Shown here: positions 515 to 5,269 of the stretch, one piece after another
Layout: each line of letters starts with the position of its first letter
Position numbering within the stretch: the first letter of the stretch is position 1
DNA from: Streptosporangiaceae bacterium
GTDB taxonomy: Bacteria; Actinomycetota; Actinomycetes; Streptosporangiales; Streptosporangiaceae
DNA: 5,269 nt
Direction: 5' to 3'
Assembly: GCA_030040815.1 (NCBI GenBank)
Contig: JASHSZ010000012.1
Coordinates: 1-5,269 of the forward strand
Notes under the pieces: model-generated
Database searches by the model: none
What the model was told of the DNA's origin: nothing
What the model saw: the letters and a program-made list of their open reading frames with translations, nothing else
Position numbers and translations under genes: made by a program

Positions 515-653
515 AACTGGACCTGTAACTGTGCTGCTAGCAGGCGAGAGGAGCCCATGTCACGTCCCGCTGCCGCGCACGGTCACGGCAGACGTCGCCG
601 CTAAATGCCCGTGCGAGCTCCCCTGTCCCGGCTGCATTCGGCACTGGCACGCC

Positions 654-689
654 GAGCCGAACGTCCCGCATTGACGGGCCGTCCGCCCA
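654..689. promoter_or_regulatory. Tandem DosR/DevR-like boxes upstream of the DUF1918 gene
   Basis: Two 14-bp sites are centred 22 bp apart. The first (654-667), read on the minus strand as GGGACGTTCGGCTC, matches 10 of 12 defined bases of the DosR core GGGACTTTNGNCCC. The second (676-689), GGGCCGTCCGCCCA, matches only 8 of 12. The block GCCGAACGTCCCGC at 656-669 recurs exactly at 1016-1029 before hsp20, with the same 8-base spacer to the second site. The proximal site ends 74 bases before the chosen DUF1918 start. The consensus is known from mycobacterial hypoxia promoters; its use here is inferred. No convincing -10 was seen. Confidence 0.5.
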
Positions 690-746
690 CTGTGCTCGGC
701 CGGTCAGCCGGGCAGTCTGGCAAAAGGAGAACAGCGCCGCGCACCC

Positions 747-754
747 AGAGGGGG
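747..754 (+). promoter_or_regulatory. Ribosome binding site deciding the DUF1918 start
   Basis: The purine run AGAGGGGG abuts the ATG at 755, too close to serve it, but lies 9 bases before the ATG at 764. This favours 764 as the start. The family N-terminus (MxAxxGDRLxVEG) also begins there. Confidence 0.6.
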
Positions 755-763
755 ATGAGCCTC

Positions 764-985
764 ATGTTTGCTCACATCGGCGACCGGCTCATCGTCGAAG
801 GCGACCCGGCGAGGGCTGGCCTCATCATTGGTGTCCCACACGACGACGGCTCGCCGCCCTACATCGTCAAATGGCTCGCCAACGGACACATCGCCATGGT
901 CTCGCCAGGCCCGTTCGCCCGCATCGTTCCGGCAAGGCACCAATCTGAGGCGCCTCATTACGGGCTACCGGTCACGAGTCACTGA
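764..985 (+). CDS. DUF1918 domain-containing small protein
   Basis: The 73-residue product opens MFAHIGDRLIVEG, the usual beginning of DUF1918, and continues through SPPYIVKW (residues 30-37), NGH (40-42) and SPGPFARIV (47-55), matching the family pattern of a PPY-V-W strand, a GH turn and a PGP motif. The family is small (about 60-70 residues), probably a compact beta barrel, common in actinobacteria, with no settled function. The loop after VEG is shorter than the family members I recall, and the last 18 residues look like an unconserved tail. The start at 764 is chosen over 755 from ribosome-binding-site spacing; an open frame reaching back to 605 has no protein-like content. It lies 128 bases before hsp20 on the same strand, but hsp20 has its own promoter-like region, so the two look co-regulated and not strictly co-transcribed. 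No membrane segment or signal peptide is visible. Confidence 0.8.
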   Translation: MFAHIGDRLIVEGDPARAGLIIGVPHDDGSPPYIVKWLANGHIAMVSPGPFARIVPARHQSEAPHYGLPVTSH

Positions 986-1013
986 TAGGTCTGCACTCAG
1001 AGATGGACTCGAC

Positions 1014-1049
1014 AGGCCGAACGTCCCGCCTGGTCGGCACTTTCGGCCC
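1014..1049. promoter_or_regulatory. Tandem DosR/DevR-like boxes upstream of hsp20
   Basis: The distal site (1014-1027), read on the minus strand as GGGACGTTCGGCCT, matches 10 of 12 defined bases of GGGACTTTNGNCCC. The proximal site (1036-1049), GGCACTTTCGGCCC, matches 11 of 12. Centres are 22 bp apart, about two helical turns, which would place two regulator dimers on one DNA face. The proximal site ends 64 bases before the hsp20 ATG, a plausible place for an activator. The arrangement copies that at 654-689. Paired DosR boxes are known before mycobacterial hspX. No clear -10 or -35 was recognised downstream. Confidence 0.65.
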
Positions 1050-1113
1050 TGCCGAGCCGGGGCCACGCGCAGTTCACTCAGCACCGTAGGAGGAGCAAGA
1101 GGAGGCGTGAGCG

Positions 1114-1554
1114 ATGAGCACGCTGGTTCGCAGGGACTCCCGATGGCCGCTCGCCGAGATGTTCGACTGGCTCGAAGCACCGTGGGCCGTCCTGCGTCCC
1201 ACTTCCGGCCACCCGATGCGGGTGGAGGACTTTGTCCGTGATGGCAGCTACGTCATTCGGGCGGAACTGCCCGGCATCGATCCGGAGAAGGACGTGGAGG
1301 TCACGGTCGCTGACGGAGTTCTGACGATCAAGGCCGAGCGACGCGAAGAGCGCGCTGACAAGCACCACTCGGAGTTTCACTACGGCACCCTCAGCCGCAG
1401 CGTGACGCTGCCGGCAGGCGCCGACGAGGAGCACGTCGAGGCCATCTACGGCCACGGCATCCTCGAAGTCACCGTCAAGCTCACCGCAGAAAAGGCGGAC
1501 ACGGCGGTGCGGAAGATTCCGGTCAGGCAAAATCAGCACCTCAAGCCAACCTGA
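1114..1554 (+). CDS. hspX: Hsp20/alpha-crystallin small heat shock protein, HspX/Acr-like
   Basis: This 146-residue protein is an ATP-independent holdase that binds unfolding proteins in the cytosol, normally as a large oligomer. The N-terminal arm (1-34) is followed by the alpha-crystallin domain at about 35-123: MRVEDFVRDGSYVIRAELPG, then DGVLTIKAER (67-76), SEFHYGTLSRSVTLP (86-100) and the GILEVTV strand (115-121); the tail carries an I-x-V motif (KIPVRQ). From memory, length and wording are close to M. tuberculosis HspX (Rv2031c), including a RAELPG-DP-KDV stretch and LTIKAER, so I assign it to that subgroup; orthology is not proven. An AGGAGG at 1100-1105 lies 8 bases before the ATG; another (1088-1093) lies further upstream. 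Two DosR-like boxes precede it, and no HspR-type HAIR inverted repeat (CTTGAGT-N7-ACTCAAG) was found, which points to hypoxia or redox control over classical heat-shock repression. A strong hairpin follows. Confidence 0.93.
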   Translation: MSTLVRRDSRWPLAEMFDWLEAPWAVLRPTSGHPMRVEDFVRDGSYVIRAELPGIDPEKDVEVTVADGVLTIKAERREERADKHHSEFHYGTLSRSVTLPAGADEEHVEAIYGHGILEVTVKLTAEKADTAVRKIPVRQNQHLKPT

Positions 1555-1598
1555 CGCTCCGAAGGCCGGCCAGGCTCGACATGCCACCGGCCGATAAG

Positions 1599-1633
1599 GA
1601 CAGGGGCGACGCCGTAGCGGCGTCGCCCCTGTC
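1599..1633 (+). terminator. Perfect hairpin, probable terminator of hsp20
   Basis: GACAGGGGCGACGCC (1599-1613) and GGCGTCGCCCCTGTC (1619-1633) are exact reverse complements. The intervening GTAGC can add one more G-C pair, leaving a 3-base loop. It begins 44 bases after the hsp20 stop. No T-run follows (GCTTCCT), a common situation in high-GC actinobacteria, so termination is probable but not certain. The stem is symmetric, but no minus-strand gene converges on it here. Confidence 0.7.
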
Positions 1634-1698
1634 GCTTCCTAAGACGTCAGAGCGTCAGCCACGCAGACAACGGCGCTCCTCGTCGCTGGCCCTTGTCA

Positions 1699-1712
1699 AG
1701 GCCTTTGGTCCC
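1699..1712. promoter_or_regulatory. Single DosR/DevR-like box upstream of the por operon
   Basis: AGGCCTTTGGTCCC matches 10 of 12 defined bases of GGGACTTTNGNCCC, including the central CTTT and final CCC. It lies after the hsp20 terminator, 100 bases before the start of the fused gamma-alpha gene. Unlike the two upstream regions it has no convincing partner 22 bp away on either side. A single match of this quality could occur by chance in a window this long, so it rests mainly on position and on the neighbouring sites. Confidence 0.35.
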
Positions 1713-1812
1713 CCCAGCCCAGGGCACACGCCTCCAGCAGCAATCCGCCTGATCGGCCAGGCTCAGAGGAGAAGTTAGCTGGCCGGACAGAGCCAGCCGA
1801 GGAGGACCTCAG

Positions 1813-3711
1813 ATGCTCCAGATCCGGATCCACGGCCGCGGCGGCCAGGGGGTGGTGACCGCAGCCGAGCTGCTCTCGGCAGCCGCCTTCCGCGAGGGCA
1901 AGCACGCCCTGGCGTTTCCCAGCTTTGGCTCGGAGCGCACCGGAGCACCGGTGATGTCATTCTGCCGGATCGACGACAAGCCGATCAGGGTCAGGGAGCC
2001 GGTCATGCACCCCGATGTGCTCGTCATCCAGGACCCGACGCTGCTGCACCAGGTCGACGTGTTCGAGGGGGCCGGCGACGACGCGCTGCTCGTGATCAAC
2101 TCCGCTGCCCCGGTGGCCGAGCTCGGGATCACAGACTTCACCAGCCGGCTGCGGCCCGGCGCCGTGCTGACCGTGCCCGCGACCGAGCTCGCGCAGCAAC
2201 ACGTCGGACGCCCGGTTCCGAACGCCGCGTTGCTCGGCGGGTTCGCAGCGCTCAGCGGAGCCGTCTCGATCGCGTCTGTCGCAGCAGCGATCCGCGACCG
2301 GTTCTCCGGGGCCGTCGGCGCCGGCAACATCGCGGCGGCGAGGGCGGCCTACGCGGCGGCATCGGCTCAGCTCGGTCGCGCCGCCGGGAACGACGGCGAG
2401 CAGGGGCTTGCTGATGTGCAGCCAGCCGGCGTCGCGAGCCCGGCGTTCGGCACGGAACGCATCGTGCAGATCGAGGGGTCGCGCGGCGTCGCCGAGGCGG
2501 TAGGGCTGTGTCGGCCCGAGGTGGTGTGTGCCTACCCGATCTCGCCGCAGACGCACATCGTGGAGGCGCTCGCCACGCTGGTGAAGACCGGGGATCTCAC
2601 GCCGTGCGAATTCGTCAATGTGGAGTCGGAGTTCGCTGCGATGTCAGTGGCAATCGGCGCGTCGGCCGCCGGTGCCCGGGCCTACACCGCTACCGCCAGC
2701 CAGGGCCTGCTCTACATGACCGAGGCGCTGTACAACGCTGCGGGGCTCGGCCTGCCGATCGTGATGACAGTCGCCAATCGCGCCATCGGCGCTCCGATCA
2801 ACATCTGGAACGACCACAGCGACGCGATGTCGCAGCGGGACTGCGGCTGGATCCAGCTCTACGCCGAGACCAACCAGGAGGCACTGGACCTGCACATCCA
2901 GGCTTTCCGGCTCGCCGAGGAGCTGTCCCTCCCGGTGATGGTGTGCATGGACGGGTTCGTCCTGACGCACGCACACGAGCGGCTGGAGATCCCGAGCCAG
3001 GAGCAGGTGGACCGGTTCCTTCCGCGGTACGAGCCTCGCCAGGTACTCGACCCGGACGACCCGGTGTCCATTGGCGCGATGGTCGGCCCGGAGGCGTTCA
3101 CCGAAGTGCGCTACCTGGCGCACGCCAGGCAGGGCCAGGCGCTTGAGCTGATCCCGGACGTGGCGGCCTGCTTTGCCGGGCACTTCGGCCGCAGCTCCGG
3201 CGGCCTGGTGCGCCCCTACCGGACAGAAGACGCGGACACCATCGTGGTAGCGCTCGGCTCGGCGCTCGGCACGATCAAGGACACCATCGACGAGCTGCGC
3301 GAGGACGGGATGAAGATCGGCGCGCTCGGCATCGTCTCGTTCCGCCCGTTCCCGATCGAGGCGGTGCGCAGCTCCCTGCAGCACGCCAAGCGCATCGTCG
3401 TGCTCGAGCGCGCGCTCGCGGTGGGCATCGGCGGGATCGTCTCGGCGAACGTGCGGATGGCGCTCTCCGGGATCCAGCTCCGCGGCTACACGGTCATCGC
3501 CGGTCTCGGCGGCCGCGCCATCACTAAGCGGTCGCTGCGCGGGCTGTTTACCCGCGCGGCCGATGACGACCTGCAGCCGCTGACGTTCCTCGACCTCAAC
3601 ACAGACCTGATCGACCGCGAGCTGCGCCGGGTCGCTGCTACCCGGCGGTCCGGGCCCGCGGCGGAGAACATCCTGCGTGACCTCGGCGCCGTCGCGCACA
3701 AGATCGGATAG
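1813..3711 (+). CDS. porA: Pyruvate:ferredoxin oxidoreductase, fused gamma-alpha subunit
   Basis: With the beta chain this 632-residue protein would interconvert pyruvate plus CoA and acetyl-CoA plus CO2, passing electrons to ferredoxin; it should be cytosolic and oxygen-sensitive. Residues 1-185 are a gamma domain (RIHGRGGQGVVTAAELL at 5-21, FPSFGSERTGAPV at 35-47). A loose linker (about 186-215) leads to an alpha domain (216-632) with CAYPISPQTHIVEAL, ESEFAAMSVAIGASAAGAR, TASQGLLYMTEALY and NRAIGAPINIWNDHSD followed by QRDCGWIQLY. The last pair is characteristic of PorA-type chains and unlike 2-oxoglutarate-specific KorA, hence pyruvate as likely substrate; another 2-oxoacid cannot be excluded. 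Fused gamma-alpha chains are known in actinobacteria (mycobacterial KorA is fused). No CxxC cluster motif occurs in this chain, as expected, because clusters sit in the beta and delta parts. GAGGAGGA at 1799-1806 lies 6 bases before the ATG. The beta gene starts 10 bases after the stop. Confidence 0.93.
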   Translation: MLQIRIHGRGGQGVVTAAELLSAAAFREGKHALAFPSFGSERTGAPVMSFCRIDDKPIRVREPVMHPDVLVIQDPTLLHQVDVFEGAGDDALLVINSAAPVAELGITDFTSRLRPGAVLTVPATELAQQHVGRPVPNAALLGGFAALSGAVSIASVAAAIRDRFSGAVGAGNIAAARAAYAAASAQLGRAAGNDGEQGLADVQPAGVASPAFGTERIVQIEGSRGVAEAVGLCRPEVVCAYPISPQTHIVEALATLVKTGDLTPCEFVNVESEFAAMSVAIGASAAGARAYTATASQGLLYMTEALYNAAGLGLPIVMTVANRAIGAPINIWNDHSDAMSQRDCGWIQLYAETNQEALDLHIQAFRLAEELSLPVMVCMDGFVLTHAHERLEIPSQEQVDRFLPRYEPRQVLDPDDPVSIGAMVGPEAFTEVRYLAHARQGQALELIPDVAACFAGHFGRSSGGLVRPYRTEDADTIVVALGSALGTIKDTIDELREDGMKIGALGIVSFRPFPIEAVRSSLQHAKRIVVLERALAVGIGGIVSANVRMALSGIQLRGYTVIAGLGGRAITKRSLRGLFTRAADDDLQPLTFLDLNTDLIDRELRRVAATRRSGPAAENILRDLGAVAHKIG

Positions 3712-3721
3712 GAGCACCGTC

Positions 3722-4768
3722 ATGCCCGTGCAGCCGATCAAGTTCTACCAGGTTGGCAGCTTCGCGGTCGGTAACCGGCTGCTCGCCGACGACCAGCGTT
3801 CCGTTCAGTCCGAGACCGACAGAACCAACTCGCTGAACTGCGGCCACCGGGCCTGCCAAGGCTGCGGCGAGGCGCTCGGCGCCAGGTACGCGCTCGACGC
3901 GGCCATGCGAGCGACCAACAGGCAGATGGTCGCCGTGAACGCCACTGGGTGCCTGGAGGTGTTCTCCACACCGTACCCGGAGACGTCGTGGCAGATCCCC
4001 TGGATCCACTCGCTGTTCGGCAACGCCCCGGCCGTGGCGACCGGCATCGCGGCCGCGATGCGCGCCAAGGGGCGTACCGACGTGCGAGTCGTCGGGCAGG
4101 GCGGCGACGGCGGCACCGTCGACATCGGGTTCGCGTGCCTGTCCGGCATGTTCGAGCGCAACGACGACGTGCTGTTCATCTGCTACGACAACGAGGCGTA
4201 CATGAACACCGGCGTGCAGCGCTCGGGAGCAACCCCGCCCGCGGCGCGCACAGCGACGACGCCCGCGGTTGGCCCGCAGCCCGGCAACAGCTTCGGGCAG
4301 GGCAAGAATGCGCCGCTGATCGCGATGGCGCACGAGATCCCTTACGTCGCGACCGCGACCGTCGCTGGCCTGCGTGACCTTGAGTACAAGGTGCGCCGGG
4401 CGATGGAGTTCCGGGGCGCCCGGTACCTGCACATCCTGGTGCCGTGCCCGCTCGGCTGGGGCAGCGCGCCCGGCGACACCATCAAGATCGCACGGCTTGC
4501 CGAGCAGACGGGCCTGTTCCCCGTGTTTGAAGCCGAGGCAGGGGACGTCGTGAGCGTGTCGAAGATCCGCCGCAAGGCGCCGGTCGAGGACTACCTCAGG
4601 CTGCAGACCCGGTATGCGCACCTGTTCAAGACCGAGGACGGCGCGGCAACCATCGCGAGGCTGCAGCGGATGGCCGATCGCAACATCGCCAGGTTCGGCC
4701 TGCTCGACCCCGAGCCATCGGCCACGGCCCAGGAAGCCACCAGCACCCCAGACAAGGAGCGCTCGTGA
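3722..4768 (+). CDS. porB: Pyruvate:ferredoxin oxidoreductase, beta subunit (thiamine diphosphate and [4Fe-4S])
   Basis: This 348-residue chain carries the thiamine diphosphate and proximal cluster of the complex. CQGC (C45, C48), the cysteine of NATGC (C77) and that of LVPCPLGWG (C242) fit the four [4Fe-4S] ligands of PorB. The diphosphate/Mg motif is GGDGGTVDIGFACLSGMF (127-144) ending in YDNEAYMNTG (155-164). FSTPYPETSWQIPWIHSLFGN (81-101), then VQRSGATPPAARTATTP (165-181), are typical of PorB. The ATG at 3722 is chosen because AGGAG at 3710-3714 sits 7 bases before it; an in-frame ATG at 3677 lies inside the alpha gene and adds nothing family-like. The length slightly exceeds archaeal PorB (about 290-310 by recollection), mainly from N-terminal and C-terminal extensions (roughly 1-35 and 325-348). 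Spacing to both neighbours indicates one operon. Confidence 0.93.
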   Translation: MPVQPIKFYQVGSFAVGNRLLADDQRSVQSETDRTNSLNCGHRACQGCGEALGARYALDAAMRATNRQMVAVNATGCLEVFSTPYPETSWQIPWIHSLFGNAPAVATGIAAAMRAKGRTDVRVVGQGGDGGTVDIGFACLSGMFERNDDVLFICYDNEAYMNTGVQRSGATPPAARTATTPAVGPQPGNSFGQGKNAPLIAMAHEIPYVATATVAGLRDLEYKVRRAMEFRGARYLHILVPCPLGWGSAPGDTIKIARLAEQTGLFPVFEAEAGDVVSVSKIRRKAPVEDYLRLQTRYAHLFKTEDGAATIARLQRMADRNIARFGLLDPEPSATAQEATSTPDKERS

Positions 4769-5269
4769 TGGACAAGCCGTTCGCGATCACCCTGGACCCA
4801 GGCTCCAGCCTGGCCAATAAGACCGGGTCGTGGCGCACCGAGCGCCCCGTGTACGTCGACCTGCTCCCACCATGCAACCACGCGTGCCCGGCAGGCGAGA
4901 ACATCCAGCAGTGGCTCTACCGCGCGGAGGACGGCGGCTACGAGGCTGCCTGGCGGCAGATCATGACCGACAACCCGCTGCCCGCCGTCATGGGCCGGGT
5001 GTGCTACCGGCCGTGCGAGACCGCCTGCAACCGGGGACAGCTGGACGCGGCCGTCGGCATCAACTCGGTCGAGCGCTTCCTCGGCGACGAAGCGATCCGG
5101 CAGGGCTGGACCGTTCCGGTCACCGCTGCGGACACTGGCTGCCACGTGCTGATTGTCGGCGCCGGGCCATCCGGCCTGTCCGCCGCCTACCACCTGCGGC
5201 TGCTCGGCCACCGCGTCACCATCCGCGACCAGGCACCCCGGCCCGGCGGGATGATGCGCTACGGCATCC
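4768..5269 (+). CDS. GltD/NfnB-like NAD(P)-binding Fe-S flavoprotein oxidoreductase, 3' truncated by the window
   Basis: The first 167 residues are present. Residues 30-110 form an N-terminal Fe-S domain of the glutamate-synthase-small-subunit/dihydropyrimidine-dehydrogenase type: PPCNHACPAGENIQQWL (C36, C40), then NPLPAVMGRVCYRPCETACNRG (C79, C83, C87). A Rossmann FAD motif follows, VLIVGAGPSGLSAAYHLRLLGH (127-148), then APRPGGMMRYGI. Such proteins move electrons between NAD(P)H, FAD and Fe-S partners. The upstream CxxC that normally starts the first cluster motif in GltD/NfnB is absent, so cluster content may be reduced. The start codon overlaps the porB stop (TGATG), with GGAG at 4756-4759 eight bases before it; a GTG one codon earlier is possible. 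Translational coupling to porB suggests it is the electron partner of the Por complex, replacing or supplementing ferredoxin; this is inference. A true GltD is less likely, since no large glutamate synthase subunit is adjacent. Confidence 0.85.
   Translation, partial: MDKPFAITLDPGSSLANKTGSWRTERPVYVDLLPPCNHACPAGENIQQWLYRAEDGGYEAAWRQIMTDNPLPAVMGRVCYRPCETACNRGQLDAAVGINSVERFLGDEAIRQGWTVPVTAADTGCHVLIVGAGPSGLSAAYHLRLLGHRVTIRDQAPRPGGMMRYGI

Follow-up and report, generated by a model that had tools for sequence, protein, structure and literature searches.

The question raised by this locus is whether the short palindromes that precede several of its genes are operators of a DosR-type regulon, and how far such a regulon would reach. 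The window, by which we mean the whole stretch of DNA analysed (5269 bases), carries a DUF1918 gene, hsp20, korA, a beta-subunit gene and the start of a gltD-like gene, all on the plus strand. A first-pass annotation had assigned the DUF1918 gene and hsp20 to a DosR-type regulon, a reading that is supported by the boxes, their spacing and their conservation. Judged from these, the sites are very probably operators for an OsdR/DosR-type response regulator, working by the mechanism proposed below, and the set appears to extend beyond those two genes to the oxidoreductase operon at 1813. The features are listed below; where a box is given two scores, they are those of the OsdR matrix and of the relatives' matrix, in that order.

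653..668: primary DosR/OsdR-type box upstream of the DUF1918 gene, CGAGCCGAACGTCCCG, 111 bp from the probable ATG (764)
675..690: second, weak box upstream of the DUF1918 gene, +22 bp, scores 3.7 and 2.6
764..985, plus strand: DUF1918 protein (PF08940), 73 aa counted from the probable start (Pfam E 7e-16 for the ORF 605-985)
1013..1028: primary hsp20 box, CAGGCCGAACGTCCCG, 101 bp upstream of the ATG
1035..1050: second hsp20 box, CGGCACTTTCGGCCCT, +22 bp, scores 9.9 and 12.4
1114..1554, plus strand: Hsp20/alpha-crystallin small heat shock protein, 146 aa (Pfam PF00011, E 3.3e-20)
1596..1637, plus strand: terminator-like hairpin between hsp20 and the oxidoreductase operon, with no T run (-37.7 kcal/mol, z -6.05)
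1698..1713 (14-mer 1699-1712): oxidoreductase operon box, AAGGCCTTTGGTCCCC, 115 bp upstream of the ATG
1813..3711, plus strand: 2-oxoacid:ferredoxin oxidoreductase, gamma and alpha fused (korA; PorC+PorA like; Pfam POR, POR_N, PFOR_II)
3722..4768, plus strand: 2-oxoacid:ferredoxin oxidoreductase beta subunit (PorB like; PF02775)
4768..5269, plus strand: GltD-like FAD/NAD(P) oxidoreductase, truncated by the window end (PF14691, PF13450)

A start of the DUF1918 gene at 605 was rejected, as the Pfam domain begins at residue 54, which is base 764, and as the earlier start would also place the boxes within the gene; the ATG at 764 is the likely start. In Pfam, DUF1918 (PF08940) is a domain of unknown function, and the window protein is a sequence relative of Rv2302 (structure 2a7y, E 1.1e-10). 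The description of the following gene as hspX-like holds for membership of the Hsp20 family, and at that family level only. The korA product scored 188 bits against NCBIfam TIGR02175 (pyruvate/2-ketoisovalerate family; cut-off 81.1), and the best NCBIfam equivalog models for the oxidoreductase were pyruvate synthase PorA and PorB, both matched under their cut-offs. Left of 604, the minus-strand ORFs matched no Pfam family and nothing among the fetched loci, and the plus-strand ORF 11-604 gave marginal matches only (E about 0.005). A search for sigma-70-type promoters at 600-1900 returned none. The hairpin at 1596-1637 is strong, which suggests that hsp20 forms a unit distinct from the oxidoreductase operon and fits the presence of the operon's own box at 1698; the terminator scan needs a T run, and the hairpin is therefore absent from its list. 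A similar stem, GACAGGGGCG...CCGCCCCTGTC, was noticed by eye in L014, a Streptosporangiaceae MAG that is the closest locus found (korA protein 87% identical).

The 14-mer GCCGAACGTCCCGC that had drawn attention to the locus is indeed identical at 656-669 and 1016-1029, and the matches to the DosR-like consensus are as the first-pass annotation gave them: the sites at 654-667 and 1014-1027 (minus strand) each agree at 10 of 12 bases, with second sites at 1036-1049 (11 of 12) and 676-689 (8 of 12), both pairs being spaced 22 bp. The match count of the second DUF1918 box was confirmed, but the box is weak by both matrices, and the set of two pairs, correct as far as it went, lacked a further site at 1698-1713. 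When up to three mismatches were allowed, the consensus was no commoner in the window than in shuffled sequence (5 sites versus 4.96 expected). When up to two were allowed, there were 4 sites (653-668, 1013-1028, 1035-1050 and 1698-1713) versus a shuffle mean of 0.36; none of 300 shuffles reached 4, and none of 300 held a pair spaced 20-24 at this stringency. All four of these sites fall in the gaps 605-763, 986-1113 and 1555-1812, which make up 545 of the 5269 bases, the unassigned stretch 1-604 not being treated as a gap. Shuffles of the whole window have a longest exact repeat of at least 14 fairly often (66 of 300), whereas a 14-mer common to the two short upstream regions arose rarely (1 of 5000). 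Directly after the second DUF1918 box an inverted repeat (691-710) was seen by eye, and one was also seen in L195, some 60-85 bases upstream of the DUF1918 start.

Sites in the window were scored with two matrices. The OsdR matrix is the symmetrised matrix of 25 OsdR sites taken from the accessible part of PMC5069765. The relatives' matrix was obtained by expectation maximisation on 23 upstream regions (5 hsp20, 7 DUF1918, 5 korA and 6 osdR promoters), seeded with the OsdR matrix and with the window excluded; the osdR promoters L189 and L190 and the korA promoter L195 were left out of training for want of a clear box. The five highest-scoring sites with the OsdR matrix began at 134 (12.2), 1013 (11.2), 1035 (9.9), 653 (8.8) and 1698 (8.2), and the four highest with the relatives' matrix at 1013 (15.8), 1698 (14.8), 1035 (12.4) and 653 (10.7), with 134 falling to 7.9 (rank 6) and 675 to 2.6. 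The same four sites held ranks 1-4 when the hsp20 and DUF1918 promoters were left out of training, box 653 remaining at rank 4, and when the korA promoters were left out, box 1698 then scoring 13.5 at rank 2. With the six osdR promoters alone as the training set, 1013 ranked 1, 653 ranked 4, 1698 ranked 15 and 1035 ranked 30. The site at 134-149 (GAGGCCGTCCGGCCCA), the top OsdR-matrix site, was dropped, having ranked 8, 9 and 163 in the leave-out trainings; no gene of a known family lies beside it, and its surroundings are small ORFs in which no gene was recognised.

Pairing differs among the three promoters. At hsp20 both matrices place a second box (1035-1050) beside the first, and among 121,018 coding positions the OsdR-matrix score of this pair was reached at a frequency of 8.3e-6, which stayed the same when the matrix was trained on the relatives' osdR and korA promoters. 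The DUF1918 pair was reached at 4.1e-5 of coding positions with the OsdR matrix, and it failed with the osdR- and korA-trained matrix, by which its second box (675-690) falls below zero (-2.4). By the OsdR matrix, then, both pairs are rare in coding DNA, where equal frequency had been named as an objection. The oxidoreductase promoter has a single box, the position of a second (1720-1735) scoring -2.7 with the relatives' matrix. By that matrix, the box at 1698-1713 outscores both DUF1918 boxes.

The arrangement is retained in related genomes. In all five near-relative hsp20 promoters examined, a primary box lies at -99 to -105, and two of the five have a clear second box, the other three a degenerate one; L014 keeps both boxes, the second 16-mer being identical, with a spacing of 21, and the hsp20 gene of L049 (Streptomyces cyaneochromogenes MK-45) also has a box pair with a spacing of 21. 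Scanning for a second box with the primary box as anchor gave +22 as the best offset by both matrices in each of the families hsp20, DUF1918 and korA; for the three families pooled, the OsdR-matrix score at +22 was -4.9 versus a mean of -21.6 (sd 3.8). The mean at +22, although the best of all offsets, is negative (-4.9 or -0.6), which means that the average second box is weak. The anchors used for hsp20 and korA are the top sites of their promoters by the relatives' matrix, and one of two tied sites was used in L198; the DUF1918 anchors in L185, L188 and L192 are not the top-scoring sites of their promoters, a choice that favours the +22 result. The osdR promoters themselves carry a box in six of the eight examined (G008 being outside the eight), with relatives'-matrix scores of 16.2-18.1, all six belonging to the training set of that matrix; L189 and L190 showed no clear box, and the korA promoter L195 showed none.

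A DosR-family regulator, for which the first-pass annotation had asked the genome to be checked, was found in the nine nearest genomes. The OsdR query, a response regulator of Streptomyces cyaneochromogenes (L086:11926-12630), gave matches at E 1e-20 or better in all 12 genomes searched (7 to 40 per genome), and an OsdR-type protein with 62-67% identity to Streptomyces OsdR was present in 9 of the 9 nearest; in G011 the best match reached only 43%. The other OsdR-query matches listed for the nine nearest genomes lie at 35-45%, except for a second copy in G009 (60%), and G004 holds an additional OsdR fragment (77% over 111 residues). The regulator of G002, the genome of L014, has receiver and GerE domains and matched the DevR structure at E 5e-82, with VraR next at 1e-44, and DevR was also closest among solved structures to the query regulator itself (E 2.7e-71). 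The EKTVKN of the DNA-binding domain is conserved in 10 of 10 proteins aligned. Matches to the kinase query (L085:4072-5802) were likewise obtained in all 12 genomes, and each of the nine nearest has a DevS/DosT-like kinase, although the match in G009 contains an internal stop codon. The G002 kinase consists of two GAF domains, HisKA_3 and HATPase; its first GAF is closest to the DevS/DosT GAF structures, as is the GAF kinase that served as query. Beyond the gltD-like gene lies osdR in five of the nine nearest genomes (G003, G004, G005, G006 and G010), and in the nearest genome, G002, it is on a different contig from the gltD-like gene. A convergent osdK adjoins osdR in seven of the nine; in G004 a contig end separates the two, and osdK of G010 is on another contig. 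We infer that osdR and osdK exist in the window's own genome as well.

At genome scale, the strict palindrome GGGACSWWSGTCCC was found at 20 sites in nine genomes versus 2 for a reversed-pattern control; the pattern derives from the relatives' matrix, and its osdR and L205 sites are thus not independent of it. Of these sites 16 were read out, and 13 precede osdR, cytochrome-b-type, PPOX (pyridoxamine-oxidase-family), DUF1918, usp or nitroreductase genes, among them osdR at four (the L210 site included), cytochrome-b-type genes at four (one assigned via Pfam, the rest by eye) and the pyridoxamine-oxidase family at two (one via Pfam); the remaining three (L203, L216, L218) precede none of these. 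Boxes had been expected before universal stress, nitroreductase and hspX-type genes, and the relatives have them before osdR, usp, nitroreductase, DUF1918 and hsp20 genes. The loose palindrome RGGMCSWWSGKCCY was not enriched at genome scale (143 sites versus 221 for the control) and so could not be used to list the regulon. In L204, L211, L215 and L217 a cytochrome-b-domain membrane protein follows the strict palindrome (PF13631 in L211, the others by eye) and is a possible unlisted member of the regulon.

Several other explanations of the sites were weighed. The sites could be bound by another NarL/LuxR-family response regulator with a DosR-like palindrome that is not an OsdR orthologue, and the number of OsdR-query matches in each of the 12 genomes, the commonness of GGnCC-type palindromes (the loose pattern and its control alike) and the two osdR promoters that lack a clear box would all agree with this. 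The box before osdR itself in the other six promoters, the fit of the targets to published OsdR/DosR regulon types and the independent recovery of the same window sites by the published OsdR matrix make such a regulator unlikely. Control of hsp20 by a heat-shock repressor (HspR/HAIR or HrcA/CIRCE), with the boxes incidental, would be in keeping with the family, since Hsp20 genes are often heat-regulated; neither a HAIR nor a CIRCE motif occurs in the window at up to three mismatches, and we regard this explanation as highly improbable.

Two further explanations concern the origin of the repeat. If the two upstream regions were a duplicated promoter, the 14-mer would reflect common descent and not selection, and in a gapped comparison 625-659 does resemble 1023-1059 (local score 30, reached in 1 of 2000 shuffles). 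Masking the 14-mer lowered the best local score to 22, which 117 of 2000 shuffles reached, so that the earlier remark of little identity outside the sites roughly holds; the same comparison in four relatives gave 16-22, with none aligning along the whole length, and the two products belong to unrelated families (Pfam). We therefore consider a duplication very unlikely. A chance origin of GC-rich palindromes and a 14-mer repeat would accommodate the shuffle-like count at up to three mismatches, the frequency of repeats of at least 14 in whole-window shuffles and the lack of enrichment of the loose pattern in genomes. It is already largely refuted, and hardly credible, given that 0 of 300 shuffles matched the window at two mismatches, that a matrix built outside the window puts the boxes at ranks 1-4, and that position and spacing are kept in relatives.

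Operators for an OsdR/DosR-type regulator thus remain the preferred reading. Low oxygen (or NO) would cause a DevS/DosT-like GAF kinase to phosphorylate OsdR, an OsdR dimer would occupy the upstream box, at about -100 from the start codon in each case, and another dimer would join cooperatively two helical turns downstream (about -80), at the weaker box next to the promoter. Binding would turn on hsp20 and the DUF1918 gene, and the oxidoreductase/GltD-like operon would be turned on from its own box. The boxes and the way they are spaced and conserved among relatives are seen directly, as are the relatives' regulator and kinase genes; from these we infer OsdR binding, cooperativity, the oxygen signal and induction at these promoters. 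Cooperative primary and secondary binding by OsdR here would parallel that of DevR: as described in the accessible text of PMC3029386, phosphorylated DevR binds a primary site and then, cooperatively, an adjacent weak secondary site, and DevR targets carry one, two or more boxes, a second box being common and not required. Binding of OsdR to such sites by EMSA is reported in the part of PMC5069765 available.

The kind of system is already known, and what this locus adds is the lineage, the box form of the clade and a likely recurrent target, the oxidoreductase operon. As far as the accessible text of PMC5069765 describes it, the OsdK-OsdR regulon of Streptomyces coelicolor has a palindrome of the same type as the window (AGGGCCGATCGGCCCT) and shares usp, nitroreductase and pyridoxamine-oxidase targets with the window's relatives; Table 1 of that paper includes several hypothetical proteins and names no Hsp20, DUF1918 or ferredoxin oxidoreductase. 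The regulator and GAF kinase are of the same family as those in the relatives. Unlike in S. coelicolor, osdR and osdK are convergent neighbours in the seven relatives noted above, and the near relatives of the window favour GGGACC-NN-GGTCCC, which is nearer the mycobacterial form than the OsdK-OsdR palindrome. The DosR/DevR regulon of Mycobacterium tuberculosis (consensus TTSGGGACTWWAGTCCCSAA) uses a primary and a secondary box, as here, but differs in that the window has its DUF1918 gene, hsp20 and oxidoreductase operon side by side, and five of the nine relatives have osdR close by. We take Rv0569 to be a DUF1918 protein. Rv2031c (hspX; three motifs) and Rv0569 (one motif) are both among the DosR regulon members in the portion of PMC2275270 available. 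The oxygen-sensing dormancy regulon, known chiefly from work on mycobacteria and Streptomyces, would extend to uncultured Streptosporangiaceae-like actinomycetes known from metagenomes, and the DUF1918 family, whose function is unknown, would gain a conserved regulatory context.

The box at 1698 suggests that the oxidoreductase operon is co-induced with hsp20 and the DUF1918 gene. In a survey of korA promoters, loci were counted as positive if any site 30-180 bp before korA reached the 5% level set for the whole locus. With the relatives' matrix, 17 of the 32 loci of actinobacterial type were positive (12 of 27 once the training loci L001, L002, L003, L007 and L014 are removed), as was 1 of 44 proteobacterial loci; with the OsdR matrix, 14 of the 32 were positive, the proteobacterial count being 1 or 2 of 44 across matrices. 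L047, a Cellulomonas MAG by title, was counted in the 32, L067 and L073 were placed in neither group, and L027 and L054 (truncated korA) were omitted. In L004, L005 and L006 a usp gene lies between, and boxes at about -100 and -120, weak in L006, precede usp. The presence of OsdR (at least 50% identity) was compared with a site before the operon in 40 genomes (26 non-proteobacterial, plus 14 of the 44 proteobacterial ones). By the relatives' matrix, a site was found in 11 of 19 genomes with OsdR versus 2 of 21 without (Fisher 0.0014), and outside Proteobacteria in 11 of 19 versus 1 of 7 (p 0.06). The OsdR matrix gave 9 of 19 versus 3 of 21 (0.026), and 9 of 19 versus 1 of 7 outside Proteobacteria (0.14); this weaker association outside Proteobacteria means that phylogeny may account for part of it. 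The genome of L041 (G011) has a strong operon box (17.2), two OsdK-like kinases and no OsdR above 43%; one kinase lies near a contig start, and osdR may be missing from the assembly.

In the literature covered, consisting of titles and abstract openings with few subscription journals, the oxidoreductase operon is nowhere named as a DosR/OsdR target, and the accessible parts of the work on M. avium DosR (PMC11876180) and on the M. smegmatis proteome (PMC6292918) draw no link between the oxidoreductase and DosR. A putative pyruvate or 2-oxoglutarate ferredoxin oxidoreductase is reported to be up 4-fold in Mycobacterium smegmatis hypoxia in the available portion of PMC2799521. On the survey, the oxidoreductase operon is likely a recurrent DosR/OsdR target, which is a modest new point. 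We lean only slightly towards the broader proposal that DosR/OsdR has, widely conserved across Actinobacteria, a previously unlisted core target in a pyruvate-type ferredoxin oxidoreductase/GltD-like operon, often physically linked to osdR-osdK, by which the dormancy switch would also turn on ferredoxin-based pyruvate oxidation. Such a target would tie dormancy control to a specific redox metabolism. In L185, L186, L187, L188 and L192, a reading frame that ends within the region upstream of osdR has a tail resembling ferredoxin (CKGCGIC..ECPCGAI); it probably belongs to the GltD-like gene and suggests a PorD-GltD fusion that would pass electrons to NAD(P).
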